A program made the position numbers and the translations under genes. From Catenaria anguillulae PL171 (Eukaryota; Blastocladiomycota; Blastocladiomycetes; Blastocladiales; Catenariaceae), in contig MCFL01000111.1 in assembly GCA_002102555.1 (NCBI GenBank), positions 1 to 64,000 of the forward strand: a stretch of DNA of 64,000 bases. The letters are read 5' to 3'. Every line of letters starts with the position of its first letter. Position 1 is the stretch's first letter. Shown piece after piece: positions 19,233-45,157 of the stretch. The notes beneath the pieces are model-generated. The model was not told the DNA's origin. It did not search any database and saw only the letters and a list, made by a program, of their open reading frames with translations.

Positions 19233-19304
19233 GCCCTTGTAGCTCAGTGGCAGAGCGTTGGTCTTGTAAACCAAAGGTCCCGAGTTCAATCCTCGGTGGG
19301 GGCA
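19233..19304 (+). tRNA. tRNA-Thr (anticodon TGT)
   Basis: A 72-nt cloverleaf: acceptor GCCCTTG pairs with TGGGGGC (with G-T pairs), D arm GCTCAGTGGCAGAGC, anticodon stem TTGGT/ACCAA with loop CTTGTAA (anticodon TGT), T loop GTTCAAT within CCGAG/CTCGG. No intron. It reads ACA codons. Confidence 0.93.
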
Positions 19305-30562: not shown

Positions 30563-33500
30563 ATGCGCATGTCTCGCAGCTTGACCCTGCTGCCGGCCCT
30601 GGCGGCCCTCTCGCTCCTCCTCACCCTTCCCCTCTCCATCGACTCTGCCTGGCCCAGTCTTCACCATCCCCGCCCGCGCAGCTGCCCACCGTCCCGCTCC
30701 CTGGCTCGTCCCTCCCCATCTCGCCCGCACCCGCCCGCTCCCCGGACCACGTCCTCGTCAATGTCCTACTCACTACCAAGGGCACCTCGTACGGCACCCC
30801 GGCAGATACCGTCTCGCACTCGCAGGCGGCCTTCTACGCAGCGCTCGCCGCAGCCAACATTCCCTTTGATCGCAACGGCGCGCCCATCTCGGGCCTCGTC
30901 AACTCGGTGCCCATTGTTCTCAAGGATCGCAAGCTTGTCGGCAAGTTGAGGCGGGTGCCTGGAGTTGCCGAGGTTGTGCCGGTGGTCCAAGTCAAGTTGG
31001 AAAAGGCCAAGACTCGCATGCCCAAGGTGGATGAGGGTGCACCCGTCGCACCCGAGGCACTGGGCAAGCGCAACATTGACCCCAGGGCGTTTGCGCTGTT
31101 GCAGCCGCATGCCTTGACGGGCGTTCGGGCAACACATGCGCGCGGAATTACGGGTAAGACCGCCAAGATTGGTATGATTGATACGGGGATCACGGCCGAC
31201 CATGTATGTCGACAGTTGACATTTTCTCATTCATTGGACGTGGCCCGTGATTCTGTTCTGACACTTCCGTGTTTTCCTGACAGCCCGCATTCGGCAACTG
31301 CTTTGGTCAACCCACCTGCGTCCTGCAATCCTTCACCGACTACGCCGACCCGACCAACACGACCCCCATCGACTGCTCACTCGAGGGCCACGGCACACGT
31401 GTTGCCGGTATCATGGTTGGCCGTGCCCAGCTCGCCTCGTCGCCGCCACCTCCGCCGACATCTTCGCCCGCTCGGCCCACGTCGCCGCCGCTCACGTTCA
31501 CGGGAGTGGCGCCGGACGCTCAGCTGCACGTGTACCGGACATATGTCTGCGGCCAGTCGCCGTACGGCGAATCCACGTGGTTTGTGCGTGCTCTCGAAAA
31601 GGCCGTCATGCAAGACAAGGTCGACGTCATCAACATTTCGCTTGGCGAAGTGAACCCGTGGGCCGTCGGCACGCTCGGCAAAGCCATTGAGGCAGTGCTC
31701 GAGACACGGCCAAATGTGGTGATTGTTGGCACGGCGGGCAATGGCGGAAATTCGCCGTATCAACTGTTTGGGCCCGGATCCACCACACCCGTCTTGTCTG
31801 TTGGATCCATTGATAATCGGTTTGTGCTTGCACGGACCATGGAAATTGTCCGGCAACAGGGCGGCGCGAGCGTCGATGTGGATTACTTGTACTCGATCTC
31901 AGACCCGATTGTGCCCGGTGACATTTCTGACGAAATTGTCGTGTTGCGCGGTGGTCTTGACAAGGCAACGCCGCAGCAGTGTGACGACAACGAGTACGTG
32001 ACCAAGATGGTGGGCGACAATGCCGTCGTAGCCAACAAGACGGTTGTGCTGTACACGGGCGCGTGCAACATTGTCCGGTCAGCGGGCGTGCTGGCCGACT
32101 CGGCCGTCAATGCCGGTGCCCGCAGTGTGCTGCTTGCCCTTGCCAACAACGATCTCAGCAGTCCGGCGTCCAGGTCCATCACGGGATCCACGGCAAAGTG
32201 GGCAAAGATTACGGCCGCGGCCGCAGACCGTGCGTTTGGTCCATTCAGTAGGCCGCCCACTGGCGGCGGGGCGGCGGCGCCACCAAAGTTTGTTGTCGTC
32301 AAGGACCGCAAGGTCACGCTGTCGACCGAGGATCACATTGTGCAAAACACAAACTCTGGCCAGCTCTCAGCATTCACGTCATTTGGGCCTACTGCAACGT
32401 TTGACCTCAAGCCGGAAATTGTTGCGTATGGCGGTTCGGTACTGTCTGCCCAGCCCGCAGAGTATGGCGGCCTGTGGGGTCTCAACGACGGGACATCCTT
32501 CTCTGCTCCTTACGTGTCCGGATGCATTGCCCTTCTGCGTCAAGCGCTTGGCCCAAATCCTTCAGCACAAGACCTGCGCGCCATCCTCATGCAATCTGCC
32601 GTGCCCGCGTACGAGCGCGACCCAGACATCCCGGGCCTGCAAGCGCTGCCCGTGCAAGGACAAGGTGCGGGCGTCGTCAACATGTTGCGTGCGCTCGAGC
32701 TCGGCGCACGCGTGGGTCCCTTGTCGTCCTTGTCACTCAAGCCGCCGGGTGCCACAGGCAACGGCACAGTTGTGAGCAAGCTGCCCGTGACGATTCAGCA
32801 GGGCAAGGATGGTCGGTTGGATGTGGATGCGCGGGGCAGGCAAACGTACACGCGGAAAATCACAGTCACAAACAACTTGTCGACGCCCGCCAGGTTGCGC
32901 TTGCAACACATTGCGGCACTGTCGCTGGTGGCCGATCCCAAGACCAATGTCATTTCGGACACCATGGCCATTGCTCCTTCGACCGTCTCGTTCCGCGCAC
33001 TCACGCCTGGCACGTCCCACAGCACCACGGCCGGGTCGACAGCCGTCCTGACGCTTCGCGCGCGCGCCACAGCCGAGGTCGAAGTCCAAGTGACGCCCGA
33101 CAATGGCCGCACGCGCAACTCTGGCGCGCTCTTTTCTGGCTACCTGCGCGTGACGTCCACGACCAATGGGTCTGCACGCATTCGGACCTTACACGTGCCA
33201 TACGCTGGGTACAATGGCGACTTGTCGCTGACGCCCATGTATCCACGCGACAAGTCGCGTGCACTTGCGCTTGCGTTTGCTGACACGTCCACGACTCCAG
33301 AGACGGTGCGGCCGCTCACGGGATGGACCAAGGACACGGTGATTCCATGGACCCAGTATGATAATCCAAGCGTATACTTGAGTGTCGCGTTTCAGACAAC
33401 CCGGCCAAGTCGCCAATTGATTGTTGGTGTGTTTGATGGCGACAAGCATGTGGGCAACTTGTTGTCGAGCGAGTTGAATGGCCCACTCAAGTCGGACAAG

Positions 33501-33710
33501 CCCTGGAACAAGGATTTGTATCAGCCCGTCAAATATTCCGAGGAAGATGGGTATGAGGTGCCGGTTGTGCTCGAGTATGGCAAACAGTACAAGGTGCGCG
33601 TCGGCGCTTGGTGGGGTGAGCAAGTGCTGAGTGTCGAGGATGTGTTCAAGAGAGGCCAGGTCTTGGAGGGACCGAGTTTCCAATTGCCGCCTGCATCGCC
33701 AAGTGCTTGA
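30563..33710 (+). CDS. Large secreted subtilisin-like protease (S8) with C-terminal extension; one apparent frameshift
   Basis: The start MRMSRSLTLLPALAALSLLL is a signal peptide. A propeptide follows (PDHVLVNVLLTTKGTSYG, GLVNSVPIVLKDRKLVGKLR), then KIGMIDTGI (Asp), the intron 31204-31283, LEGHGTRVAGIMVG (His), VIVGTAGNGGNSPY (Asn) and LNDGTSFSAPYVSGCIALLR (Ser). A protease-associated-like insert lies between the His and Ser blocks, and about 330 residues of beta-rich sequence follow, as in the minor extracellular protease/C5a-peptidase branch. Signal peptide and propeptide are in different frames; one base added in the C run 30668-30671 joins them, giving about 1022 residues. Only that single change is needed, so an indel error is as likely as a dead gene. 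Expected role: extracellular or wall-bound proteolysis. Confidence 0.85.
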
Positions 33711-34060
33711 CACCGGAGCAGAAATGTTTTCCAGCTTCATTGATCGCAATTTGTGTCATATGTACACATGTATCATATCTTTCACAGTTCTTGATATTCT
33801 TTCACGTGTGGCGGCGGCGCTGGAGCCTTTTCCTTGCCCTGTGAACCGACGTGAGCCAAGATATTGGTATGCCCGGTCACCGCAGAGCTTGCCGGCTAAA
33901 TGCTGTGGATCCAAGTCAACCCATCGCGGAATCCTTGTGCAGACAGCTCCATCAGGCTCCATCAACCAGGTCTGTTGTCATCGTGCATGCGGGGACGAGC
34001 TGCTCTCCGACACAGGCCAGATGGATCTCGGGGCCAAATACGATGCCGTCGCTGCCCGGC
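33711..34060. other. Left flank of the retrotransposon, original upstream flank of the tRNA-Lys target
   Basis: No gene. By the insertion model it holds the 3' UTR of the subtilase and the sequence that originally lay directly upstream of tRNA-Lys. Confidence 0.5.
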
Positions 34061-34156
34061 TAAGCCCCCCTAGCTGATGATGATTGTATTGAAGTCATGA
34101 TATAAGAGTAAGCCCCCCTAGCTGATGATGATTGTATTGAAGTCATGATATAAGAG
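34061..34156. repeat. Two 48-bp tandem units: target duplication plus LINE 3' end, twice
   Basis: Units 34061-34108 and 34109-34156 are identical. Each is TAAGCCCCCCTAGCT (15 bp, also at 42451-42465, the start of tRNA-Lys with three bases before it) followed by 33 bp that are the 3' end of the LINE on the minus strand. Confidence 0.92.
34076..34108 (-). mobile_element. 33-bp, 5'-truncated copy of the same LINE
   Basis: Identical to the last 33 bp of the full element (34124-34156) and bounded on both sides by the 15-bp tRNA-Lys target sequence. Best read as an earlier, heavily 5'-truncated insertion at the same nucleotide. Confidence 0.72.
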
Positions 34157-34378
34157 CCAACGTTTAGGAACAAATAACACAACAAGCCAGGACCTACAGC
34201 CTTGCGTCCAACGCCAATACGGTGGTGCAGTTCGAGCCAGAAATGGTATGCTGACCAGACACGCGGAAGGCATAGTTGTTGGACATTGCGCGGGAAGGCA
34301 CCAGCTCAATACACCTGAGCACGCTTGGCCTTGGATACACGCGGCCGCGCGGCTAGAGCGCATCGTCAATGCAAACGA

Positions 34379-37300
34379 TCACGCAAATGGAGGAGACACG
34401 CCGGACAACAGCAACCGCGAGGCTGCGTCATCAGCGGCGAGTCGCGTTTGGTCGTGACGACCGACAGGACAACGGAACTTGGCAATGGCGACGTCGCGCC
34501 AGCGGAGAGGAGGATCGTGGTTGGATTCGAGGTGATGAGAGTAGGGCGTCAAACACGCCAAGCAGAAAACGGAGGGTAAAGGGAGGGGAGGGTTGAGAGG
34601 AGCTGGGAGAGAGGGCGGGAGGGTGGATACCGTCTTGTACGGCAGGCGCTTGGGTTGCTCGGGCCACTGATCCAATGGCGGGAGAGGCGGGGCTGGGGCA
34701 ACAAACGGCGGGGCGGGTGCCATGACCATGTCGGGTGGCTGCCGGAACCGGAACGTGGGCGTCGGGTGGTAGACGGACACAAACCCATCGTACTTGGTGT
34801 GACGCTTGTGTGGTGGGCCAGCCACATTGGGCCGTGCACGCTCTTGCGGTGGGAGCAGACCAATGCGCGCTGAACGAGCGATGCGCAGCTCCTCCTTGTT
34901 CTCGCGCGTGTTGGGGTCCGGGTAGAAGGCGTAGATGGCCGTGGTGTGTGCTTCCCAGACCCGCTCAAAGAGAAGGGACGAAACGCGCGAGAGGAGAAGG
35001 CCGGCAACGCGCGAGGCGGGGAGTTTGAGGCGCGGGCCAGAAGGACGGAGTATGTCAACAGCGGCCATGGTCACGACGCACGCGGCTGCATGGCGGAGGG
35101 ACGAGGTGGATGCAAACCAAAGGTCAACCAGTTGGTGTGCGAGCCGCTTGCGCGGGATCGGCGCAGTGGTGAGAGCGGAGAGAGCGGAAGAGACAGCCGC
35201 GACCGCAAGCTCGTGGGCAGCATCACGGTCAGCCTCGCCAGCAGGGCACTCGAGCCAGTGTACTTGGTCGTCCTCGTACGCGGCGTCGGGGAGCGGGCAG
35301 CGCGGGCACCATGGGCCTTGATGGTACTTGTCGCACCAGCGCGTGAAATTGAGCAGACGCGTCGGGAGGTTGCCTGTGAGGGTTTTCACCCGGCGCGCGA
35401 GGCCCGTGTTGGAAGCAGACGACGAGTGCAAGTCGCCGGCGCGGTGACCGTCGTGTAGTGCGCACTCGGTGGCAGCAGGGTGGGCATTAGGCCAGTCGAT
35501 GTAGGGTGCTGATTGGGTGAGTTGAGCGTGGGCACGAATGTGCAAGAGCGTGGTGATGAATTGGCGCGGGTCATTGCTGACGTTGCGGCAGTCGAGGCAT
35601 GGGTGTGGCGGGACAGTCGTGAGCGAGTCGGGGTGCTCGTCTGAGTTCGGGTGGGGCGGAGGAGGAACGAAGTATGCCTGGGGCGGTGGCGGAGGAGGAG
35701 GAGGGGGAGGCGGGGGAGGAGCAGGCACTGGGAAGATGGGACCGAGAATGATTGTATCATTTTTTCTTTTTTCGTGATCTTTTTTGTTTTCGTTTTCTTT
35801 TTGCGAGCTATTTTGAAACGGGGACAGAGATGAAGATGAAGATGAAGATGATGACGAAGACGTAGATGTCGATGTAGATGTAGATGTAGAAGAACTTGAA
35901 GATAGAGACGGAGAAGGAGCCACACGGCGACGGGGCGGAACAGTTGGGCGGAAACGGGCGACCTGGTGGAGTTGACCGTCAACGATGACAACAGGAGGGG
36001 TGGAAGAGCGGACGAGGATGTCGAGGGCAGACTTGTGCGAGCCAAAGGCCAGTGAGAAGGGCAAGTCAGAGAATGCGAGAAGGTGGGGCGAGAGAAAGGA
36101 GGGCTCGAGGTCGTTGGCTGCTGACTTGGCAAGCGAGTCGGCTGTGTCGTTGTGGGCACGGTGGGGGTCGTCTGGATCATCGGAATGGCCCTTGACCCAG
36201 CTGATGGTGACTGTGAGACTGCGATGGGCAATCACAGCGCGAATGGCCGCCCACTCTTGACTGCAGGCGACTCGGACACGACGGCGGGGGAGCGGGGGTG
36301 GCTTGTTGGGCTGCTGAACTTGACGATAGAATTGCCCGATGGCTGCCTTCGAGTCGGTAAAGATATGTAGAGAGGACGAGACGGGAATGGAAGAAAGAGC
36401 GAGGAGGATTGCCCACACTTCGGAGCGCGTTGAAGAGTGTTCGCCCAGGGGCAAACGGACGCGACAGGAGAAACCTAGCTCGGGAAAGTATGCAGATGCA
36501 CCAGCGGCGCGGTCGGAAAGTGGGGTATCGATCGAGAAAGAGGGGTCGTCAGGGTTGAAGAGCGAACCGTCCGTGTATGCAATGAGCGGTCGCGGCCGGC
36601 CGGTGGCGAGAAAGTCAGGGACAAGATCAAAAGGGCACTCAACAACCTCGCAGAGGTCGACGGTGGGGGGAGACGAAAGGAAAACGCGAGAAGAAAAAGC
36701 AACAACAGCAGCAATGTCCTGCGCCTCCTCATCGAAAAGTGGAAGCGGGGGAAGAGAAAAAGAATCGAGGGATGGGAGAGCTGGTGGTTTGAGAAGAAAC
36801 GAAGGAGAGAGAGCGTGATTGGTCGGGGTATATGGTTGAGGAAACGAGGCAAGATTGAATGTAGACGGCAAACGGAAGAGGGCATCGACAACGAACGCTG
36901 CAACATCGTTTTGGACTCCGCCGGCCGTGCCGACATTGAGGACTTTGGTGACGGCCGCATGGACTTGGGGCTTGCCAAATGAGCGGTAGTCGGCAGGCAC
37001 GGCGGCGTGATGGAGCAAGTCGTGCATGTACTTGAGCTTGTGGTTGCGAAAGTACTTGACCGACGCCGAGTACGTGTCTACAGGAAGCACGGACACGAGG
37101 GGAAACGATTGCCCGCCCCAAGGGTCGTCGGCGGGAGGGACGGAAAAGGGAGTATACGGGAGAAAAAAGACACCAGCGGAATCCGAGATGGAAATACGGC
37201 GTGCGTGCATGAGAGAGAGTAGGTTGCCAAACCAGCAGCGACTGCGGGCGACAGTGATGGGAAGAGGGTGAGAGAGGGGAAAGAACGGGATGGACAGGTG

Positions 37301-40300
37301 ACGTTGGAGCAAGCAGAGCGACACCTTGATGGCGATGCTGCGTGGGTGGGTATCGTTGAGGGCTGCGAGAATGTCAGTGAGCCGCGAAGAAAGAACGAGG
37401 TCGGGAAAAGACTGCAAGCCAATGAACGACTTGTCAAAAAGGACGGCATTGGGGTGATTGACGGGTAGGCCGAGCTTGCGCTTGACGAGCCCAGTCGCCA
37501 TCGAGTTGCAGACGTTCAGAGTCGTTGGTGTGGGCACAAAGCCAAGCGTCCGGTACAGGGCGCTAGGGAAAACGACAACGTTCAAGAGCCATACAGCCAT
37601 CTTGCCCGTCACCGCCTTGCGCCTCAGCAGCGGGATGCACCGCCGAAACACATCCAACATGGACTTGCGAGCGCTGGTACCGCGGAAACGGTGGTCCACC
37701 CAAATGCCCAAGTACCGAAACGAAGTCATGTCATTCACCCGCGGAATGTCTTGACCGTGAATGGTAAACGGGTCGCTCTCGTCCTTGTCCGCCCCATGCA
37801 AAATCCAAACCGCTCCCTTCTTTGGGTTGGATCGGACGTTGGTCATCTCGTTGAATTGCTCAACACGCCGCAATATTCGGTCCATGTCGCCCCGTGTCGT
37901 GGCAACAAACACTGCGTCATCAACGAACGCCATACCCGCGACGCGAGCCTTGCCAAGGAGCTTGCCCTTGTCCCGTTGTCTGTTGGGGGCACCGACCGAG
38001 ACAATGTTGGTCTGTGCACGGAGAGTGACGCCTTGGATGGCGGGGTCAGTATTCACTGCCGACAAGAGAACATCGTAAAAGATGGCCCACATCAGCGGCG
38101 ACTCGACGGCGCCTTGCGGCACCCCTCGCTCAATCGGTACGGGGTCTGACAAACCGTATGACGTGATGACTCGCGCCACCCGACCCGCCAAGTACCCGTC
38201 GCAGTAGAAAGAAATAAAAGACTCGGGCATGTTGATCCGACGGAGGGCCAGCCGCAGGGCTTCGTGTGGAACTGAGTCGAAGGCCTTGGACTTGTCCTCG
38301 AAAAACGCAAAAAGCTGGCCCTTGCCGGCGGCATGGCCGGGTACGTACCCTTGTGCCCACTGCTGCTCAAAGGCGGCGTGAAGAATGGCGATCGGCGTCG
38401 ATGCATCGGTCCCCGGCAAGGTGGAGTGACAGGCACCCTCCAACACTGGATATGAAAGCATGACCTTGTATATACGAGTCAACAGTACTTTCATAAGAAG
38501 TTTGCTGGCACACTCGAGCAACGTAATCGGCCGCATCCCCTCCGTCAACCCAACAAAGCCCTCCTCGGACTTGGGCAACAGGTAGATCGAGCCCTCTTTC
38601 CATGCCTCTGGCACCCGTTCCTGCTCCAAGCACGCAGTGCACAGCGCGGCAAGCGCCTCAAGACACTCTGGGCCCGATTCGCGAATCATGCGCATCGTGA
38701 TTTGACTCACGCCAGGTGCCTTGTCAACGCCCACCGACTGCAACACTTCAGTCAACTCCTCAACCGTGATGGCGGCCATGACACCTACCCACGCCTCGGG
38801 CGGAATCTTGTCGTGTGACTTTGGCGCCCACGCACGCGCCCAGTACTCGCCGAAACCGTCAATGTCAAAGTCCTCGCCTTTGAAGCTTGCCGACATGAGC
38901 ACGGCGATCTGGGCAACAATGTCGTCCGGATCAAAAGAGAGCCGGTCGCCATCCCGAACCGAGTCGACGGCCGAAACCGGTCGCGTGCGGTCAAAGATGC
39001 GCCGTACCAGCTCAGCAATTGCGTGTGGGGCAGACTCAAAGCGGCTTTTGACGGCCGTGGCAATCTTCTCCGACAGCTGTGCCTGCTCGCGGACGAGGAC
39101 AATGGTTGACAGCGCTTGGCGGGCCGCTGAGCAGTAACGGGCGCACTCGGACTCGGTCGGGCCTGGCGGGTTGATGCCCAGCTCGGCGAGACGGTCAAAC
39201 GTGGATTGTGGGCCGGGCAATGGGAAGCCTTGTTTGCGCCATTGGTCGAGTTTGAGGATGTGGTACCCTTCCGGCGACTTTGACAGGCGCCGTCGAGGTT
39301 CCGTGAACGCGGACTTGCCACCGGCCTTGCGGTACTTGAGCTTGGCCTTGGCCGAGTCCATCCACACTTTTTGAAGAGCGGCTTGCGCTGCCTCCAGCGA
39401 CTCAGGCGTGCCCTGAGCAATGAGTGAGAGTACGTCTGCTTCCGCCACGGATCGCGCACACTCACCGCTGTACGCCTCCCACGTCTTTGTGGTGCACTCG
39501 GCAAGGTCGAGGACCTCGCGTTGCGCATTGCGGGCAGCAGACGCAATTTTTCGAAACAGATCACGATCAAGAAGCGTACCAATGCTTGTTCGTGTGGACA
39601 CGATGGCATGGTCAAGACCAAGCAGCGGGTTGTCGGGCGTGTCGTGGGGCCAAGTGACATTGTACCCATTCAGGTAGTGGCCGAGCTGGTCGTCGACAAG
39701 GATCCGGTCGAGCCGATTGCGGTGGTGGGTGGGCTGTTCGTTGTTGAAGACGGTAGCAACATCAAGCAAACGATGCCGAGTTTCGAGCGTGTGGAGAAGA
39801 GCAGCGCGGGGTGAGCCGTCGCTGCAGTTCCAATCGCCACCGAGCACAACATGGTCGCCCGCATCAAGAGCACGTTGACACACGTCATGGAGAAAAATGG
39901 ACATGGCTCGGGCCAGTGGAAGAGCAGGCGGGAGGTTAGCACGGAGGCGGGAGGGTAGGTACGACGTGGGAACGATGCGATTGGTATCAGGTGAGAGGTA
40001 AACAGAGACGAGGTGGAGTTTGCGACCAGTTGCGAGGCGTAGGGGAAGGTGGGTGGCATAGCCAGTGAGGTGAGAAACAGGATCTAGGTAACAACAGAGT
40101 GAGCGTCGGATAGCAATGGCGACACCGCTACCCATCGGGTGGGACGAATCCACTGTGGAGAAAAACGAAAAAGGAAGAGAGGTGAATCGAGTGGCATTTT
40201 TTAAAGAGTTAGTGGTTGCTTTTGTTTCGTTAAGGAAAATAACGTCTGCATCGAGCCCACCGAGTGCAAACTCCAAGAGCGCAATCAGCTTGCTGAGAGC

Positions 40301-40399
40301 AGCTTGACTGTGTACGCCCCTGCAATTCGCAATGGCGAGATTGACGCGGAGGTTGGGTATCGGGGGTATGGGTGGTGGTGGTTGTGGATCACTACTCAT
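34379..40399 (-). CDS. LINE ORF2: AP endonuclease, reverse transcriptase, RNase H, zinc motif
   Basis: A single frame of 2006 codons. Endonuclease (about 15-260): NLAIANCRGV, VIFLNETKATT, VVLGGDWNCSDG, RLDRILVDD and LGLDHAIVSTR keep the metal-binding and catalytic D-x-N and D-H positions. Reverse transcriptase (about 550-900): FFEDKSKAFDSV, RGVPQGAVESPLMWAIF and MAFVDDAVFVAT, where the usual YADD is FVDD. RNase H (about 1270-1430): AYTDGSLF, STRSEVWAILLAL, FTDSKAAIG and HNDTADSLAKSA provide the D-E-D-D residues. A Ser/Thr run and a 13-residue poly-Pro stretch follow, then a C-terminal WCPRCPLPD...HWLECP zinc motif (about 1700). The start ATG overlaps the ORF1 stop codon. It would nick the tRNA-Lys target and copy the RNA in place. 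Confidence 0.95.
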   Translation of the reverse strand: MSSDPQPPPPIPPIPNLRVNLAIANCRGVHSQAALSKLIALLEFALGGLDADVIFLNETKATTNSLKNATRFTSLPFSFFSTVDSSHPMGSGVAIAIRRSLCCYLDPVSHLTGYATHLPLRLATGRKLHLVSVYLSPDTNRIVPTSYLPSRLRANLPPALPLARAMSIFLHDVCQRALDAGDHVVLGGDWNCSDGSPRAALLHTLETRHRLLDVATVFNNEQPTHHRNRLDRILVDDQLGHYLNGYNVTWPHDTPDNPLLGLDHAIVSTRTSIGTLLDRDLFRKIASAARNAQREVLDLAECTTKTWEAYSGECARSVAEADVLSLIAQGTPESLEAAQAALQKVWMDSAKAKLKYRKAGGKSAFTEPRRRLSKSPEGYHILKLDQWRKQGFPLPGPQSTFDRLAELGINPPGPTESECARYCSAARQALSTIVLVREQAQLSEKIATAVKSRFESAPHAIAELVRRIFDRTRPVSAVDSVRDGDRLSFDPDDIVAQIAVLMSASFKGEDFDIDGFGEYWARAWAPKSHDKIPPEAWVGVMAAITVEELTEVLQSVGVDKAPGVSQITMRMIRESGPECLEALAALCTACLEQERVPEAWKEGSIYLLPKSEEGFVGLTEGMRPITLLECASKLLMKVLLTRIYKVMLSYPVLEGACHSTLPGTDASTPIAILHAAFEQQWAQGYVPGHAAGKGQLFAFFEDKSKAFDSVPHEALRLALRRINMPESFISFYCDGYLAGRVARVITSYGLSDPVPIERGVPQGAVESPLMWAIFYDVLLSAVNTDPAIQGVTLRAQTNIVSVGAPNRQRDKGKLLGKARVAGMAFVDDAVFVATTRGDMDRILRRVEQFNEMTNVRSNPKKGAVWILHGADKDESDPFTIHGQDIPRVNDMTSFRYLGIWVDHRFRGTSARKSMLDVFRRCIPLLRRKAVTGKMAVWLLNVVVFPSALYRTLGFVPTPTTLNVCNSMATGLVKRKLGLPVNHPNAVLFDKSFIGLQSFPDLVLSSRLTDILAALNDTHPRSIAIKVSLCLLQRHLSIPFFPLSHPLPITVARSRCWFGNLLSLMHARRISISDSAGVFFLPYTPFSVPPADDPWGGQSFPLVSVLPVDTYSASVKYFRNHKLKYMHDLLHHAAVPADYRSFGKPQVHAAVTKVLNVGTAGGVQNDVAAFVVDALFRLPSTFNLASFPQPYTPTNHALSPSFLLKPPALPSLDSFSLPPLPLFDEEAQDIAAVVAFSSRVFLSSPPTVDLCEVVECPFDLVPDFLATGRPRPLIAYTDGSLFNPDDPSFSIDTPLSDRAAGASAYFPELGFSCRVRLPLGEHSSTRSEVWAILLALSSIPVSSSLHIFTDSKAAIGQFYRQVQQPNKPPPLPRRRVRVACSQEWAAIRAVIAHRSLTVTISWVKGHSDDPDDPHRAHNDTADSLAKSAANDLEPSFLSPHLLAFSDLPFSLAFGSHKSALDILVRSSTPPVVIVDGQLHQVARFRPTVPPRRRVAPSPSLSSSSSTSTSTSTSTSSSSSSSSSSSLSPFQNSSQKENENKKDHEKRKNDTIILGPIFPVPAPPPPPPPPPPPPPQAYFVPPPPHPNSDEHPDSLTTVPPHPCLDCRNVSNDPRQFITTLLHIRAHAQLTQSAPYIDWPNAHPAATECALHDGHRAGDLHSSSASNTGLARRVKTLTGNLPTRLLNFTRWCDKYHQGPWCPRCPLPDAAYEDDQVHWLECPAGEADRDAAHELAVAAVSSALSALTTAPIPRKRLAHQLVDLWFASTSSLRHAAACVVTMAAVDILRPSGPRLKLPASRVAGLLLSRVSSLLFERVWEAHTTAIYAFYPDPNTRENKEELRIARSARIGLLPPQERARPNVAGPPHKRHTKYDGFVSVYHPTPTFRFRQPPDMVMAPAPPFVAPAPPLPPLDQWPEQPKRLPYKTVSTLPPSLPAPLNPPLPLPSVFCLACLTPYSHHLESNHDPPLRWRDVAIAKFRCPVGRHDQTRLAADDAASRLLLSGVSPPFA

Positions 40400-42330
40400 T
40401 GTTGCTGCTGCTGGGTTTGGACGCCGGGATCAGCAATGTACTGAGTGACAAACTGCGGTGTGGTGTCGGGCTTGGCCAGTGTCACAAGCGGTGTCGCCAG
40501 TTGCCGGCCTGCAACCTCGCTGAGCTGGTGCATCACCCCAGCCAGGGTCCGCTGGAGACTTGATTCGAGGCTCTTGACGACCGAGTCATGGAACTGGCCT
40601 TGGTTCAACCAAATCATGTGTGCGGTGTTGCGGACAAGCGCGTCGAGTTGGGCCTGTGTAAGGAGAGATGCTGGAGAGAAGGAGGGGTTGGAAGAGCCAG
40701 AGTTAGCACTGTCCGTCTTTGCACGTTTCGAGGCCCTCGTGTTCCCGGCAATGCCCGTGGTCGCTTCGTGGGATGCGGCAACCGTCACTTGCGTGAGCTG
40801 ACGGAGCATGTCGTTCTCTGCGCGGAGCTCCCTGATGGTGTCGGAGAGGGCGCTGACTTGTTGCTGTAGAGGGGCAACAGCTGCGGCAACAGCAGTCGTG
40901 ACCGCTTGCTCGAGGGACGCATGCGTGGGAGGCGCCGCGTTGGTCGTGGTGGCGGCGAATTGTGCGGAAAGAGAATCGATCCGCCGCTGGAGGCTGTCGA
41001 TCTTGGTGTCGGCGGCCGTCGGTTTTTGGGGTTGCTGGGGGGAAGCAGCCGGGCGGGCGGGAAGGGCAGGAAAGTCGGGGTTGGGTGTGCCTGCGGCGGC
41101 AACGTCACGGAAGGAGAGACCATTGCGCACTAGGGAGGGGGCAACGGAGCGGAGGGGGATCATTTGTGCGTTAGTGGGAGCGGCTTTGACAGCATCGTTG
41201 ATGGCCTTGCGGGCTTGTTGAGCGGCGCGTGTGGTTCGGAGGCGGGCACACGTGGAAACACCGTGCCCAGCCTGGTGGCACGAGAAGCACAACGGAGAGT
41301 CCATGGGCGACCAAACGAGGTCAGCATTGAGATTGTGCCATGTGTACGTGACCTTGACACGGGCAGCGGCGGCGGCAACCTCGGCCGAATCGAAAACGAC
41401 GACGGCTCGAGAGAGCTTTTTGCCGTCGCGGTTGTACTCAATGCGCCAGGACACCGCATCAAGGTCGGCCTTTCTGAGGGCCATGCCGATGAGAATGTCG
41501 GTCGCACCAGCCGGGACACCGTACAGGTGAAGGGAAGCGGGGCGGTCTGTGCGACGGCAGTTGCGAGCCGACGTGTACGTGTTCGTAATGCGGGCAATGT
41601 GCCCGGCAACAGCAATCCTGCCGAGGAGCTGCAGCATTTGCGCATGGACCGAATGGTTGGGGCCCGAGAGCACGACCCGCCACACGCCGTAGAAACGGTC
41701 GTACACGTCGGGCGTGAACACCTTGACCTTGGCGTCATTGGGCAGTTTCTCCAAAAGGCGTGGGACGATGGCAGACGGGACGATGGTGGCAGGGGCGTCG
41801 TACAGGTATACGACGGAGGACAGTTCCTCAAGTTTGGCAGTGGCGGGGGAGGGGTTGTACGCGTCAAGCTTTGTCGACGCTCCGTTCGAGTTGGGCAAGG
41901 GGCGAGCGTGTGCGATTGCGTTGTCGCGACCGCTTTCCGTGTAAAACTCGACCACAAGGTGATCGAGGTCCGGGGTGCGTTTGCCGTCGGCGTCAAAGGT
42001 ACGCGGGATCGAAAAGTCGCAGGCGCAGCGGTCGGCGTCGCCAGTAAGGTATTGGAAGCGGGCGTTGTTGAGCTTTTCGGTTCTGCCCGCACCGGGCATG
42101 TCCGCGAGCAGGCAGGAGGCGAGGAAACGTTGGGCGTGAGCAGGGCGGGTAGGAGTGGGCAAGTCTTCGTCCATCTTGTCGTCATCGTCAGACGGGACAG
42201 TGATACGGAGGGCGGCAGAACGGCGGGCAGTAGTGGAATCGGAAGCGGAGGTAGCAAGAGTGACAGTATCGACTGGGGCTTGATCGAGCGGGGGCGGACC
42301 ACCCATTGTTTGGGTGCCAGGGTCGGCCAT
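40396..42330 (-). CDS. LINE ORF1: RNA-binding protein with one CCHC zinc knuckle
   Basis: 644 residues from the ATG at 42330 (MADPGTQTMGG). One zinc knuckle, CFSCHQAGHGVSTC (about residue 347), fits C-x2-C-x4-H-x4-C. A predicted coiled coil (LQQQVSALSDTIRELRAEND, about 490-515) would allow multimerisation, and the tail is Gln-rich. The upstream part (about 60-300) is folded-looking but unrecognised. ORF1 proteins of this type coat the element RNA. Its TGA overlaps the ATG of ORF2 in ATGA. Confidence 0.9.
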   Translation of the reverse strand: MADPGTQTMGGPPPLDQAPVDTVTLATSASDSTTARRSAALRITVPSDDDDKMDEDLPTPTRPAHAQRFLASCLLADMPGAGRTEKLNNARFQYLTGDADRCACDFSIPRTFDADGKRTPDLDHLVVEFYTESGRDNAIAHARPLPNSNGASTKLDAYNPSPATAKLEELSSVVYLYDAPATIVPSAIVPRLLEKLPNDAKVKVFTPDVYDRFYGVWRVVLSGPNHSVHAQMLQLLGRIAVAGHIARITNTYTSARNCRRTDRPASLHLYGVPAGATDILIGMALRKADLDAVSWRIEYNRDGKKLSRAVVVFDSAEVAAAAARVKVTYTWHNLNADLVWSPMDSPLCFSCHQAGHGVSTCARLRTTRAAQQARKAINDAVKAAPTNAQMIPLRSVAPSLVRNGLSFRDVAAAGTPNPDFPALPARPAASPQQPQKPTAADTKIDSLQRRIDSLSAQFAATTTNAAPPTHASLEQAVTTAVAAAVAPLQQQVSALSDTIRELRAENDMLRQLTQVTVAASHEATTGIAGNTRASKRAKTDSANSGSSNPSFSPASLLTQAQLDALVRNTAHMIWLNQGQFHDSVVKSLESSLQRTLAGVMHQLSEVAGRQLATPLVTLAKPDTTPQFVTQYIADPGVQTQQQQQ

Positions 42331-42450
42331 GGTCACAAATAGTCCGTTTGGCGAGATTTTTGGACAGGGTACGTAAGTTGATGCGCTGAGTCGATTGCGC
42401 AGGGTTTCGTAGCGATATTGTCACTTTTGGCCTTAAGAGGGCGCGTAATG

Positions 42451-42465
42451 TAAGCCCCCCTAGCT
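42451..42465. repeat. Right copy of the 15-bp LINE target-site duplication
   Basis: TAAGCCCCCCTAGCT: three bases upstream plus the first 12 nt of tRNA-Lys. Left copies at 34061-34075 and 34109-34123. Confidence 0.88.
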
Positions 42466-42526
42466 CAGTCGGTAGAGCGCGTGACTTTTAATCATGAGGC
42501 CACGGGTTCGAGCCCCGTGGGGGGTA
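42454..42526 (+). tRNA. tRNA-Lys (anticodon TTT)
   Basis: A 73-nt cloverleaf: GCCCCCC pairs with GGGGGGT, D arm TAGCTCAGTCGGTAGAGC, anticodon loop CTTTTAA, T arm ACGGGTTCGAGCCCCGT. It is intact although a LINE has inserted at its 5' end, because the target duplication supplies bases -3 to +12. Its natural 5' flank is now 8.4 kb away; the internal A and B boxes are untouched. Confidence 0.95.
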
Positions 42527-42832
42527 TTTGTGATTGTTTTGAAATGCTTTTGGTGGATAGGGAGGATGGCATCAATTTCATACAATGATGTAGTGCGGTT
42601 TTGGTAGAACTTTTCGTTTTGCGATCTCGTGGCATATTTCGAACAGAGTCGCGTCTCGGTCACGTCCACTCGTTTGCTCCGCGATCCCTGATCGACACTG
42701 CAGAATGTCAACGGAACAATCCAACCATAATTGCACTATGATCTCTAGTTTTCGGCTTGCAATGATCATTTCTGATTCTGGCGTCAGCGATATATGTATA
42801 TCCGGTGTATTTCTGAGCCAAAATCACAACAA
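42527..42832. other. Spacer between tRNA-Lys and tRNA-Ser
   Basis: T-rich just after the tRNA-Lys (TTTGTGATTGTTTT could act as a pol III terminator). No gene. Confidence 0.5.
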
Positions 42833-42914
42833 GACAGCGTGCCCGAGCGGTTAAGGGGATTGACTCGAAATCAATTAGGCTCTGCCTGCACAGGTTCGAA
42901 TCCTGTCGCTGTCG
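42833..42914 (+). tRNA. tRNA-Ser (anticodon CGA)
   Basis: An 82-nt class II tRNA with long variable arm: acceptor GACAGCG/CGCTGTC, anticodon stem ATTGA/TCAAT with loop CTCGAAA (anticodon CGA), T arm ACAGGTTCGAATCCTGT. It decodes UCG. It is the intact relative of the pseudogene at 1378-1495. Confidence 0.93.
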
Positions 42915-43053
42915 ATTGCTTTTGCTTGTTCTGTTTTGGTTTTTGCAAAGCCCGACAAACCTCAGGGCGGCATAGCCTCCCACCCCGTGTGTGTGAAGGG
43001 ATAAAAGTTCGAAATGGTTGATTCACATGACCGGCCATGGCTGGCAACACTTG

Positions 43054-45157
43054 TTAACTTTCTTGCATGTCTTGTCCCAAAGAAATCTGGCTTTTCCAAT
43101 CCCTAGAGTATCCAGCGGAAGGGTTCATCTCGGCCATTACCTTGGCCAGATAGCTGCGAGTCGCCTTGGTCATGGCGTGAACCAGACTGCGATTATCCCC
43201 GACGTTGCCAGCTCCTGCGCTGCTCTCGCCAAGCATTTGAAGTAAACGGGCACGAGGATCGCGAAACACGACAGCGTCGGCGTAGCCATGGACTGGGAAC
43301 AAGGCGCCTTCCGATTTCTGCTGGCAGGCGGCTCGACGAGCTTCAGTTAGCTGCTCAAGACGCGATGGGTCGCTGTGGGTTGGATCAAGGCACAAACGAA
43401 ATGAGTGGATGGATGGGTATCGGAAATATTTGGATGGAAGAGACTTACCGTTCAACGTGGATTCGTTCTGTCACAACCCGTCGTAACTTTTCCAACCGCT
43501 CCTGCATGGCCCTCTCCTCATCCCGTGCCGCTTGCTCCCTCTCTTGTCGAATCCGTGTGAGCTCAGCCTCGCGCTTTGCATTTCGCTGTGCAACGCGCTC
43601 CTTGCCCAGTTCCATCTCTTGCTTGCGCTGCCGTGCAGCCAGTAACTGCAGCTCGCTCGCCTTACGCTCTTCTTGCTCCCTCTGTCGCTCCAAAGCTTGC
43701 CTCCGTAAGAGTCCCTCGCTCACAATTCTTTCCCGTTCCGACTGTCGCCTCCGTTCCTCGCGTTCCCGCGCTGCTTGTTCTTGCTCGCGGACTTTGGCCG
43801 CGCGCTCCTTGTCCTGTGCCTCGTCGTACGCGACTTGCGCGCGCCAAGCTTGAATCATTTGGTGTGTTTCCTGTGCGTGAGCCAGCTGCTGCTCGAGAGC
43901 AGTCGCTGCCAAGCGAGAATCCAGTTGCGCATTTCGCCACTTCTTTGCCGAGTCCACCAGGCCATGCACACGCTGCCGCTGTGCAAGCTGAAACTGTTGC
44001 ATGCCCGTTTCAAACAGGGCACGCTGGCGCCGTATTGTTGCGGCAAAGTCAATCATGTCGCTGATGGTCCGCTGATTTGCAGTGGGAAGCTCCATGGACA
44101 GTCGTTTGGACAGAAGCGAGTGGCGATTGCGAGTCACGCCTGAGTACTCGTCAACAACTTTGGCCACTCGATCGATTGATACTGCGTGGTTAGTCATGAG
44201 GCTTTGACGAACAATTTCTTGTAGCAAAGAGAGGAGGTTTTGAGTTGCCGTCGACTCCATTCTGTTTTTGTTTGCAAATGTACCAACGGCCTCTGAGTTC
44301 GAGTACATCGTCAACAGCAAAAAGAGACGTTTGCGCACTTATCCAACTCGGCCAGGACACACTCGGAATGACCGTCCATATCCCTAGCATCCACCACGAT
44401 CGATATTGCGCCCGCATCGCCCTGCATCGTGTCTCTGACTAAGTAGTCCTTGGCAAGGGCATCCTCCAGCTCAATCATGTCCACGAGCTGCCCAAACTCG
44501 TCTTGCTCGGAATCGAGACTTGTGCCGTCACTGGGGATTGTGGATTCTTCAAGTTTTGATTTGACTTTCGCGATGTCGTCCAGCTTGAGTTTTTTGAATG
44601 AGCGAAGAGACTGGATGCGTCCAAGATGTTGGCGAATATCTGCATCTCGGAACGTCAAATCGACAATTCATGACAATGCCAAGACCCAGTGAATGGCTAT
44701 GCATACCATGACTCTCTGATGCCAAATCGCGCTTTGCCCGCCGAGCCGATTCCAACAAATCCAGCATTTCCTCTGCGTCATCAACCTCGAAAGTTGGACT
44801 GGTGCACATGGCGCTTGTCAAATCAACCAAATCGCGCTCGAGTGATATTCTTTTAGGACAGATATCCTCGTGGATAGTCAATAACGTGAAGGGACGGTGT
44901 GGGAATGGTGATTTTGAGCACGACAAACCGTTGCTTCTCCAACCTCGTCCAGTACGACCGCCAGACCATTTGATGCTTTTCCCGTTCGAAGCGCTGGCGA
45001 TTGCCATCTGCGGTTGCGGAGACGGATTGAATCTACCGAGGTTCTTTGTCATTCCGCACCGCATTGACGAGTTTGCTCAGCAGAGGTGGGGGGTTTTCCA
45101 TACCAACGTGTCGACGCGCAAAGAGTCTTGACGTCGGTCTGCAATTGTTGCGAGCAT
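43054..45157 (-). CDS. Ciliary-type coiled-coil protein (CCDC148/CCDC112-like)
   Basis: Six exons: 45157-45104, 45032-44925, 44866-44707, 44639-44339, 44261-43449, 43372-43054; they close in frame to 584 residues (human CCDC148 is about 590). An early RQRFEREKHQMVWRSYWTRL leads to segments such as ERDLVDLTSAM and IRQHLGRIQSLRSFKKLKLD, then a long charged coiled coil in exon 5 (for example EERRRQSERERIVSEGLLRR, about 240-470), and a conserved-looking end, DPSRLEQLTEARRAACQ...LFPVHGYADAVVFRDPRARL. That last block and the overall build recall the CCDC148/CCDC112 group of ciliary proteins; the call is from pattern only. Intron 44924-44867 uses a GTCGTG donor. The gene is divergent from AFI1 (237 bp between ATGs). 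Confidence 0.62.

Follow-up and report, generated by a model that had tools for sequence, protein, structure and literature searches.

What lets a retrotransposon insert into the body of a gene and leave that gene whole? The question is raised by a long interspersed nuclear element (LINE) that stands directly before a tRNA-Lys(TTT) gene in a 64,000-nucleotide stretch of the Catenaria anguillulae PL171 genome (contig MCFL01000111.1, positions 1 to 64,000 of the forward strand; hereafter the window). An earlier reading made from the letters alone (the original prediction) placed two insertions of this element in the tRNA gene and named a zoosporic fungus as host, correctly so, Catenaria anguillulae being a blastocladiomycete. 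We find it very probable that a LINE family of the apurinic/apyrimidinic endonuclease (APE) type, together with a short interspersed nuclear element (SINE) sharing its tail, uses target-primed reverse transcription to enter tRNA genes at a single fixed bond. The insertion point, the target-site duplication, the empty sites, the rebuilt tRNA and the stacking of insertions can be read directly from the sequence.

Two insertions at one bond of a tRNA-Lys gene

The 15-bp word TAAGCCCCCCTAGCT occurs three times in the window (34061, 34109 and 42451) and, allowing up to two mismatches, nowhere else; shuffling gives an expectation of 0.02. With these numbers and the genome-wide junction counts given below, we rejected chance as an explanation. 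As had been claimed, the last copy is the start of an intact tRNA-Lys(TTT), confirmed by ARAGORN and an Rfam score of 69.7 bits. The segment 34061-34156 is an exact tandem of two 48-bp units, and the 33 bp between the first two copies of the word (34076-34108) are therefore the LINE's own 3' end. Between the second and third copies lies the full element, predicted at about 8.3 kb and measured at 8,327 bp (34124-42450, minus strand). The 48-bp tandem is the longest direct repeat in 33700-43000, and the element is without long terminal repeats (LTRs). Both the LINE and the 33-bp stub sit between nucleotides (nt) 12 and 13 of the tRNA-Lys, at AGCT^CAG inside box A, each with the same 15-bp duplication spanning -3 to +12. 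On its sense strand, the LINE ends in ...CAATACAATCATCATC, that is, in (ATC)n and not in poly(A).

Empty sites in the same genome

The locus C124:301300-304300 matches window positions 32535-34075 (93.7% identity) and 42451-43942 (92.4%). Where the two matches meet, they share precisely the 15-bp duplication, and window positions 34076-42450 (8,375 bp) are missing: this sister locus has TAAGCCCCCCTAGCT once and the LINE 3'-end word nowhere, and holds neither LINE nor stub. The original prediction had considered that an empty locus might carry the 48-bp unit as ordinary flank. Because C124 has one copy of the 15-mer and no LINE 3'-end word, the unit is not ordinary flank there, and a pre-existing 48-bp flank is ruled out at this sister locus. 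The predicted history, two insertions at tRNA nt 12/13 with the same duplication and the tRNA rebuilt, fits the empty C124 site as well as an independent stack of insertions at C112 described below. The window region is about 93% identical to its sister in the same assembly, and several other loci have such sisters too; these may be haplotypes or a larger duplication.

Filled and empty sites could be paired within the genome in five cases (C15/C124, C413/C69, C379/C187, C167/C167 and C13/C45). The two tRNA-Ala(TGC) pairs (C413/C69 and C379/C187) have a 17-bp duplication each, and the tRNA-Cys pair, a filled site on C167 and its inverted sister on the same C167, has one of 18 bp. In the tRNA-Ala(CGC) pair, C13 carries a stub of a second LINE subfamily (LINE-B; the window element is LINE-A) and a SINE in series while C45 carries neither, and the left flanks up to nt 12 agree at 207 of 207 bases. 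One more candidate pair, C418/C13:238768, was matched on its left side with the right side uncompared and is excluded from the five. The duplications are locus-specific, as with TTCGC- and TTCAA- before the same tRNA-Ala. Counted back from the nick, left and right copies are exact matches over 15-19 bp in 21 of the 22 pairs compared; the remaining pair is exact over 10 bp and has a 1-nt gap in the rebuilt tRNA of C431.

One nucleotide in seven tRNA species

Genome searches scored the best candidates only, and the resulting copy numbers are lower bounds: at least 32 matches with the LINE 3' end, at least 25 with its 5' end, at least 42 with the protein of its second open reading frame (ORF2) and at least 41 with the SINE. 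No fewer than 18 of the 41 SINE matches extend over 366 or more of the 469 bases with identities of 89% and above. From the loci read, we collected 54 3' junctions (LINE-A 9, LINE-B 27 and SINE 18). Forty-nine of them come directly after nt 12 in the sequence of one of seven tRNA species, the 12-mer being exact in 47 and having one mismatch in two: Ala-TGC (25), Thr-TGT (10), Cys (4), Lys-TTT (4), Thr-CGT (3), Ala-CGC (2) and Arg-CCG (1). A further tRNA-Ala(CGC) junction, at C13 near 81556, was found after the count and is outside the 54. The SINE junctions are at nt 12 in 17 of 18 cases. All seven species carry T^CAG at the site, six as RRCT^CAG and Arg as AGAT^CAG, and in 25 of the 49 junctions the element begins with a non-T base, which fixes the bond. 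The anticodon arms of a tRNA-Gln(CTG) (C13:518496) and a tRNA-Met(CAT) (C35:267607) hold one further junction each, both at CT^C; ARAGORN calls both tRNAs once the flanks are joined as in the empty-site reading.

The LINE is thus of the sequence-specific type, almost every copy sitting at one and the same nucleotide of a defined target. Sequence-specific LINEs are known from R1, R2 and TRAS. Of the proposed tRNA-Lys target, the position stands, since tRNA-Lys is used at nt 12/13, but Lys-specific targeting is rejected: seven tRNA species are used at the same nucleotide, besides the two anticodon arms.

Two tRNA patterns with 51 and 38 matches gave 89 tRNA-type RRCTCAG sites in the genome, 34 of them in 5.66-kb tandem tRNA arrays (C178, C341 and C436; L046-L052 and L118). 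The array tRNAs with AGCTCAG include Phe, Met, Lys-CTT and others, and 13 tRNAs were called in the 3-kb locus L046. Outside the arrays, occupancy is 6/10 for Ala-TGC, 3/14 for Cys, 2/4 for Thr-TGT, 2/6 for Lys-TTT, 1/8 for Ala-CGC and 0/13 for Thr-CGT; one of the Cys genes (C321:10) lies at a contig end and is not judgeable. Three LINE 3' junctions have the Thr-CGT 12-mer, in one case with a mismatch, and no partner tRNA was seen for them. A tRNA-Ala(CGC) at C133, whose slightly different box A places it outside the patterns, is occupied by a SINE.

Several observations weigh against this account of integration at one fixed bond. In 24 of the 49 nt-12 junctions the element begins with T, and the insertion bond could there be one base earlier. 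Both anticodon-arm insertions break their tRNA, the duplication failing to rebuild the gene, and the duplication at tRNA-Met is imperfect (2 mismatches in 13). Copies at unrelated sequence, which the original prediction had regarded as a sign against it, do exist: three of the 54 junctions are outside tRNA genes (C223, which is CT-rich, C112:268148 and C404:10555). They are exceptions only, 51 of the 54 being in tRNA sequence. The C404:10555 junction is A-rich, and no duplication was seen at that locus. Behind a SINE and a LINE-A, the tRNA-Lys at C431:11913-11984 has lost one C of the acceptor stem and scores 58.2 bits, compared with 69.7 in the window. Among the array sites, 22 of the 34 were read and none was occupied, and outside the arrays only 14 of 55 RRCTCAG tRNA genes are occupied. 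Finally, the 54 junctions are not 54 independent events, given the C357 tandem, stacks that share copies, and sister loci.

Stacks and the order of insertion

Four insertions at one tRNA, each with its own duplication, are found at C112, where a LINE-A, a 41-bp LINE-B stub, a 147-bp LINE-B piece and a SINE precede an intact tRNA-Thr in this order, with CCAGAGCCTTTGTAGCT at every border. Such 5'-truncated LINE pieces were seen as stubs of 33, 41 and 147 bp. The inner duplication copies in stacks are without the following CAG; later insertions should therefore use the copy at the tRNA, making the newest insertion the one nearest to it. On this ordering, the 33-bp stub of the window would have inserted before the full LINE. 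At C357:188300-189220 (L081), three 273-bp tandem units of LINE-B stub and tRNA-Ala duplication are more simply read as tandem duplication than as three insertions.

Proposed mechanism and alternative explanations

In the proposed mechanism, the integration machinery would reach the tRNA gene and nick its top strand after nt 12 in box A, mostly at RRCT^CAG, and the 3'-OH at nt 12 would prime complementary DNA synthesis on the 3' tail of the element. The bottom strand would then be cut 15-19 bp upstream (at -3 to -7), and repair would duplicate the 5' end of the tRNA. With +1 to +12 lying between the staggered cuts, the copy beside the element's 5' end would be a full tRNA gene again. Every insertion would push older ones away from the tRNA and leave a fresh target, with the consequence that LINEs, stubs and SINEs come to be stacked, all in one orientation. 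Target-primed reverse transcription and this strand order of the nicks are inferred. For recognition, either a longer stretch of box A may be read by a protein, or the machinery may be tethered to tRNA genes through factors of RNA polymerase III (Pol III); the two anticodon-arm insertions favour tethering combined with a CT^C preference.

At the window locus, a single LINE insertion followed by a local 48-bp slippage duplication could have made the stub. The 33 bp are indeed identical to the adjoining element end, and for the exact 273-bp tandems of stub and duplication at C357 tandem duplication is the simpler account. The repeated block, however, starts at the very base that the empty locus defines as the left edge of the 15-bp duplication, and base identity allows no sliding of the block ends. 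The 41-bp stub at C112 differs in sequence from its neighbours, showing that stub insertions occur, and the C13 site has stub and SINE in series where C45 has neither; we consider slippage unlikely. It is also improbable that the short DNA word RRCT^CAG decides the site on its own, with tRNA genes merely carrying it. All seven nt-12 species do have T^CAG, and box A sequences without it (Ser, Leu, Pro, Gly and Glu) were not seen occupied among the loci read. Yet RRCTCAG occurs 19 times in the 64-kb window, by extrapolation about 12,000 times in the genome, compared with 89 matches to the tRNA patterns, and two of the 51 junctions in tRNA sequence are at CT^C outside box A. With the word so common and the junctions so concentrated in tRNA sequence, recognition would have to be longer or aided by Pol III factors.

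By its 5' end, which is where annotation would place it, the element stands 3-7 bp before the tRNA, and this agrees with ordinary integration in the upstream neighbourhood of tRNA genes, as in Ty3 or TRE5, with tethering by TFIIIB and no cut in the gene. In five of five filled/empty pairs, however, tRNA nt 1-12 stand on the far side of the element, and in none of the five empty sites is there a second copy of the tRNA's 5' 12 nt at the junction; upstream integration is very improbable, and the presence of nt 1-12 beyond the element in all five pairs places the priming cut inside the gene. We give hardly any credence to the remaining account, in which the tRNA 5' ends are old pseudogene fragments and the elements came to lie there by chance or segmental duplication. 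Many loci have sister copies and the junctions are partly non-independent, as that account would have it, but seven tRNA species are involved, the locus-specific upstream bases recur in both copies of the duplication, five empty sites exist and an intact tRNA adjoins the element's 5' end.

The SINE partner and its tail

The SINE, of about 450 bp, ends in ...CAATACATTACC, close to the ...CAATACAATACC of LINE-B. The shared 3' tail and the same tRNA target make the SINE a candidate for mobilization by this LINE. The SINE head holds what we take to be box A and box B words and is presumably tRNA-like, and Rfam found no tRNA in it at E<=0.1. Among the matches listed, 21 more distant ones (74-77%) are restricted to the head half. 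Four of these 21 copies were read (L122-L125) and belong to a second SINE family, with a similar head and an A-rich tail, all four at non-tRNA sites. At these four copies ARAGORN found the SINE head only, called as tRNA-Gly(TCC) in three of the four, and no adjoining tRNA gene; duplications of 15-17 bp are present in three, and the fourth ends before the far flank. Since a similar head with a different tail goes with a different target, the tail may decide targeting, and the SINE 3' tail is, on these few copies, the likely key to the tRNA-targeting machinery. Tail-dependent placement of the SINE is thus supported, and the two families make a natural tail-swap comparison on what decides LINE targeting.

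5' tails, possibly from former target sites

The conserved LINE 5' end is separated from the duplication by 11-27 extra nt. We tested these 5' tails at 19 of 25 places, with the tail start set by eye; omitted were four places at C13:236770-237740 and C418:96238-97214 (no clear junction), C404 (truncated 5' end) and C357:174346 (a near-duplicate of C224:3530). A 12-18-nt piece of a tRNA 5' region, with its end at nt 7-12, is present in six of the 19 tails, with no equal match in 200 shuffles each: those of the window (Arg), C199 (Cys) and C413, C167, C13 and C224 (all Ala). The C199 tail end appears as nt 8 in the output, which counts that gene from one base earlier. The tRNA species is unlike the copy's own target in four of the six; the C224 tail carries the flank of another tRNA-Ala, and the C413 tail corresponds to its own target. 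The remaining 13 include C431, with an 8-nt match (10/200 shuffles), and C128 and C279, whose matches are to T runs; all others do no better than chance. The tRNA-Arg(CCG) gene matching the window tail (13 nt, 0/200 shuffles) is located at C414, and we read the tail as carried over from a former tRNA-Arg(CCG) donor site.

Most simply, such tails would come from an RNA with an antisense start within the donor tRNA. We propose, tentatively and leaning somewhat to the doubtful side, that the tRNA gene may serve as both landing pad and promoter, the LINE RNA starting antisense from about nt 7-12 of the donor tRNA, and that the SINE tail may move between machineries and so switch the type of site. 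If true, a new LINE copy can bring along a short tag from its previous site, as the window LINE would with its tRNA-Arg(CCG) tag, and the tRNA rebuilt at the LINE 5' end would restore the element's own promoter at every insertion. The LINE 5' fragments at C13:236770-237740 and C418:96238-97214 (L023 and L024) consist of two 5' pieces about 650 bp apart with no tRNA at the junction and are perhaps older or related elements.

Coding capacity and relatives

The window element is an APE-type non-LTR retrotransposon, as seen from its endonuclease, reverse transcriptase (RT), variable duplications, 5' truncation and absence of LTRs. The APE-like endonuclease and the RT share one reading frame, with RNase H downstream of the RT, and Pfam matched Exo_endo_phos (6e-11), RVT_1 (3.5e-16) and RNase_H (1.6e-9). 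These were the only three families matched in ORF2 by Pfam, with no endonuclease besides the APE type; a restriction-like endonuclease (RLE) was not found there. By eye, we take NCRG, FLNET, GGDWN, RLDRI and GLDH for the APE motifs, FVDD for that of the RT, and TDG, SEVW, FTDS and ADSLA for those of RNase H. RNase H is borne by LINEs of the I group, Tad1 and others. Long simple Pro-/Ser-rich stretches follow beyond the RNase H (window 35640-35910). The frame is open in the window, at C431 and in five LINE-B copies (C379, C223, C128, C413 and C167). In ORF1, whose stop overlaps the ORF2 start at ATGA (40399-40396), CFSCHQAGHGVSTC is presumably a CCHC knuckle; Pfam gave no match to ORF1, and a homology search returned a single homologue, 50% identical. 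An RT tree without labelled clade references united the element with seven homologues, including one of Blastocladiella emersonii, with clade support 100/100. Sequence searches of the PDB matched R2 and L1 with the whole ORF2, and with the endonuclease part gave one irrelevant match (E 0.13).

Table 1. Coordinates of the LINE, its target and associated features in the window
Feature	Position	Strand	Remarks
Target-site duplication, copy 1	34061..34075	+	tRNA-Lys -3 to +12, remnant of original target; identical to single copy in empty locus C124
5'-truncated 33-bp stub	34076..34108	-	LINE's last 33 nt only; 100% identical to 34124-34156; absent from C124
Target-site duplication, copy 2	34109..34123	+	Sequence match to TAAGCCCCCCTAGCT
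Full-length LINE, subfamily A	34124..42450	-	8,327 bp, antisense to tRNA; 3' end 34124, 5' end 42450
ORF2	34379..40399	-	About 2006 aa from first ATG; APE endonuclease, RT, RNase H, Cys/His-rich C-terminal region
ORF1	40396..42330	-	About 644 aa from first ATG; translation; one putative CCHC knuckle
LINE 5' tail	42435..42450	-	AAGAGGGCGCGTAATG (+ strand reading); 13 nt = tRNA-Arg(CCG) -4 to +9
Target-site duplication, copy 3	42451..42465	+	-3 to +12 of living tRNA gene
Intact tRNA-Lys(TTT)	42454..42526	+	Rebuilt target; ARAGORN; Rfam 69.7 bits; identical to tRNA of empty locus C124
tRNA-Thr(TGT)	19233..19304	+	Unoccupied potential target; ARAGORN; tRNA-Thr(TGT) genes occupied at C21 and C112

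Comparison with known systems

A mobile element usually either ruins the gene copy that it enters or stays out of the gene body. The Catenaria LINE cuts within the promoter of an essential gene and the gene stays whole; its supply of targets is therefore not exhausted, and insertions form an ordered stack. The stack order, with the newest insertion probably nearest to the tRNA, offers a readable insertion history, and the system suggests how dense genomes can tolerate targeting of gene bodies.

A literature search over titles and the starts of abstracts, covering few subscription papers, found no APE LINE that cuts box A and rebuilds the tRNA, and no work joining Catenaria anguillulae, a retrotransposon and tRNA. 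Prophages and integrative elements in bacterial tRNA genes restore the tRNA gene upon integration, as the Catenaria LINE does; the route differs, those elements using integrases, mostly at the tRNA 3' end, and carrying the replacement sequence themselves. The claim that such an insertion is undescribed was too broad, since tRNA-gene LINEs are in print (PMC4640811, PMC5006619); what looks new among tRNA-targeting LINEs is the variant itself, an in-gene, self-restoring LINE/SINE system on several tRNA species.

The LINEs NeSL-1_TV (tRNA-Pro), LIN15_SM (tRNA-Arg) and LIN25_SM (tRNA-Glu) are likewise specific for tRNA genes. They belong to the RLE group and not to the APE type, a single kind of tRNA is given for each, and self-restoration is not described in the consulted parts of that account (PMC4640811). 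The Dada DNA transposons of Perkinsus insert inside tRNA genes, with a putative duplication TAGCTC in box A, the same box A word as in the Catenaria target; they differ in their DDE transposase and in duplications of 6-7 bp (PMC3706591), which would be too short to rebuild a tRNA from box A. Zebrafish Dewa resembles the Catenaria element as a site-specific LINE associated with tRNA genes, going by excerpts of the same paper (PMC3706591).

The Dictyostelium TRE5 and TRE3 elements are also LINEs homing to tRNA genes. They insert about 50 bp upstream or about 100 bp downstream of them and have a poly(A) end, a zinc finger and no RNase H, and an interaction of the TRE5-A ORF1 protein with TFIIIB is reported in vitro (PMC5006619, PMC5911963, as far as the sections consulted go). 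The Catenaria LINE, in contrast, stands at nt 12/13, ends in (ATC)n and has RNase H. NLTR-A of Dictyostelium purpureum is an APE-RT-RNase H LINE found 2-6 bp upstream of the tRNA coding sequence; an in-gene cut, a duplication and rebuilding of the tRNA are not described for it in the same sections (PMC5006619, PMC5911963). By description, NLTR-A has the same domains as the Catenaria element, whose own 5' end lies 3-7 bp upstream of the tRNA. It is the closest known system in the accounts consulted, and its position 2-6 bp upstream raises the possibility that it may prove to work alike.

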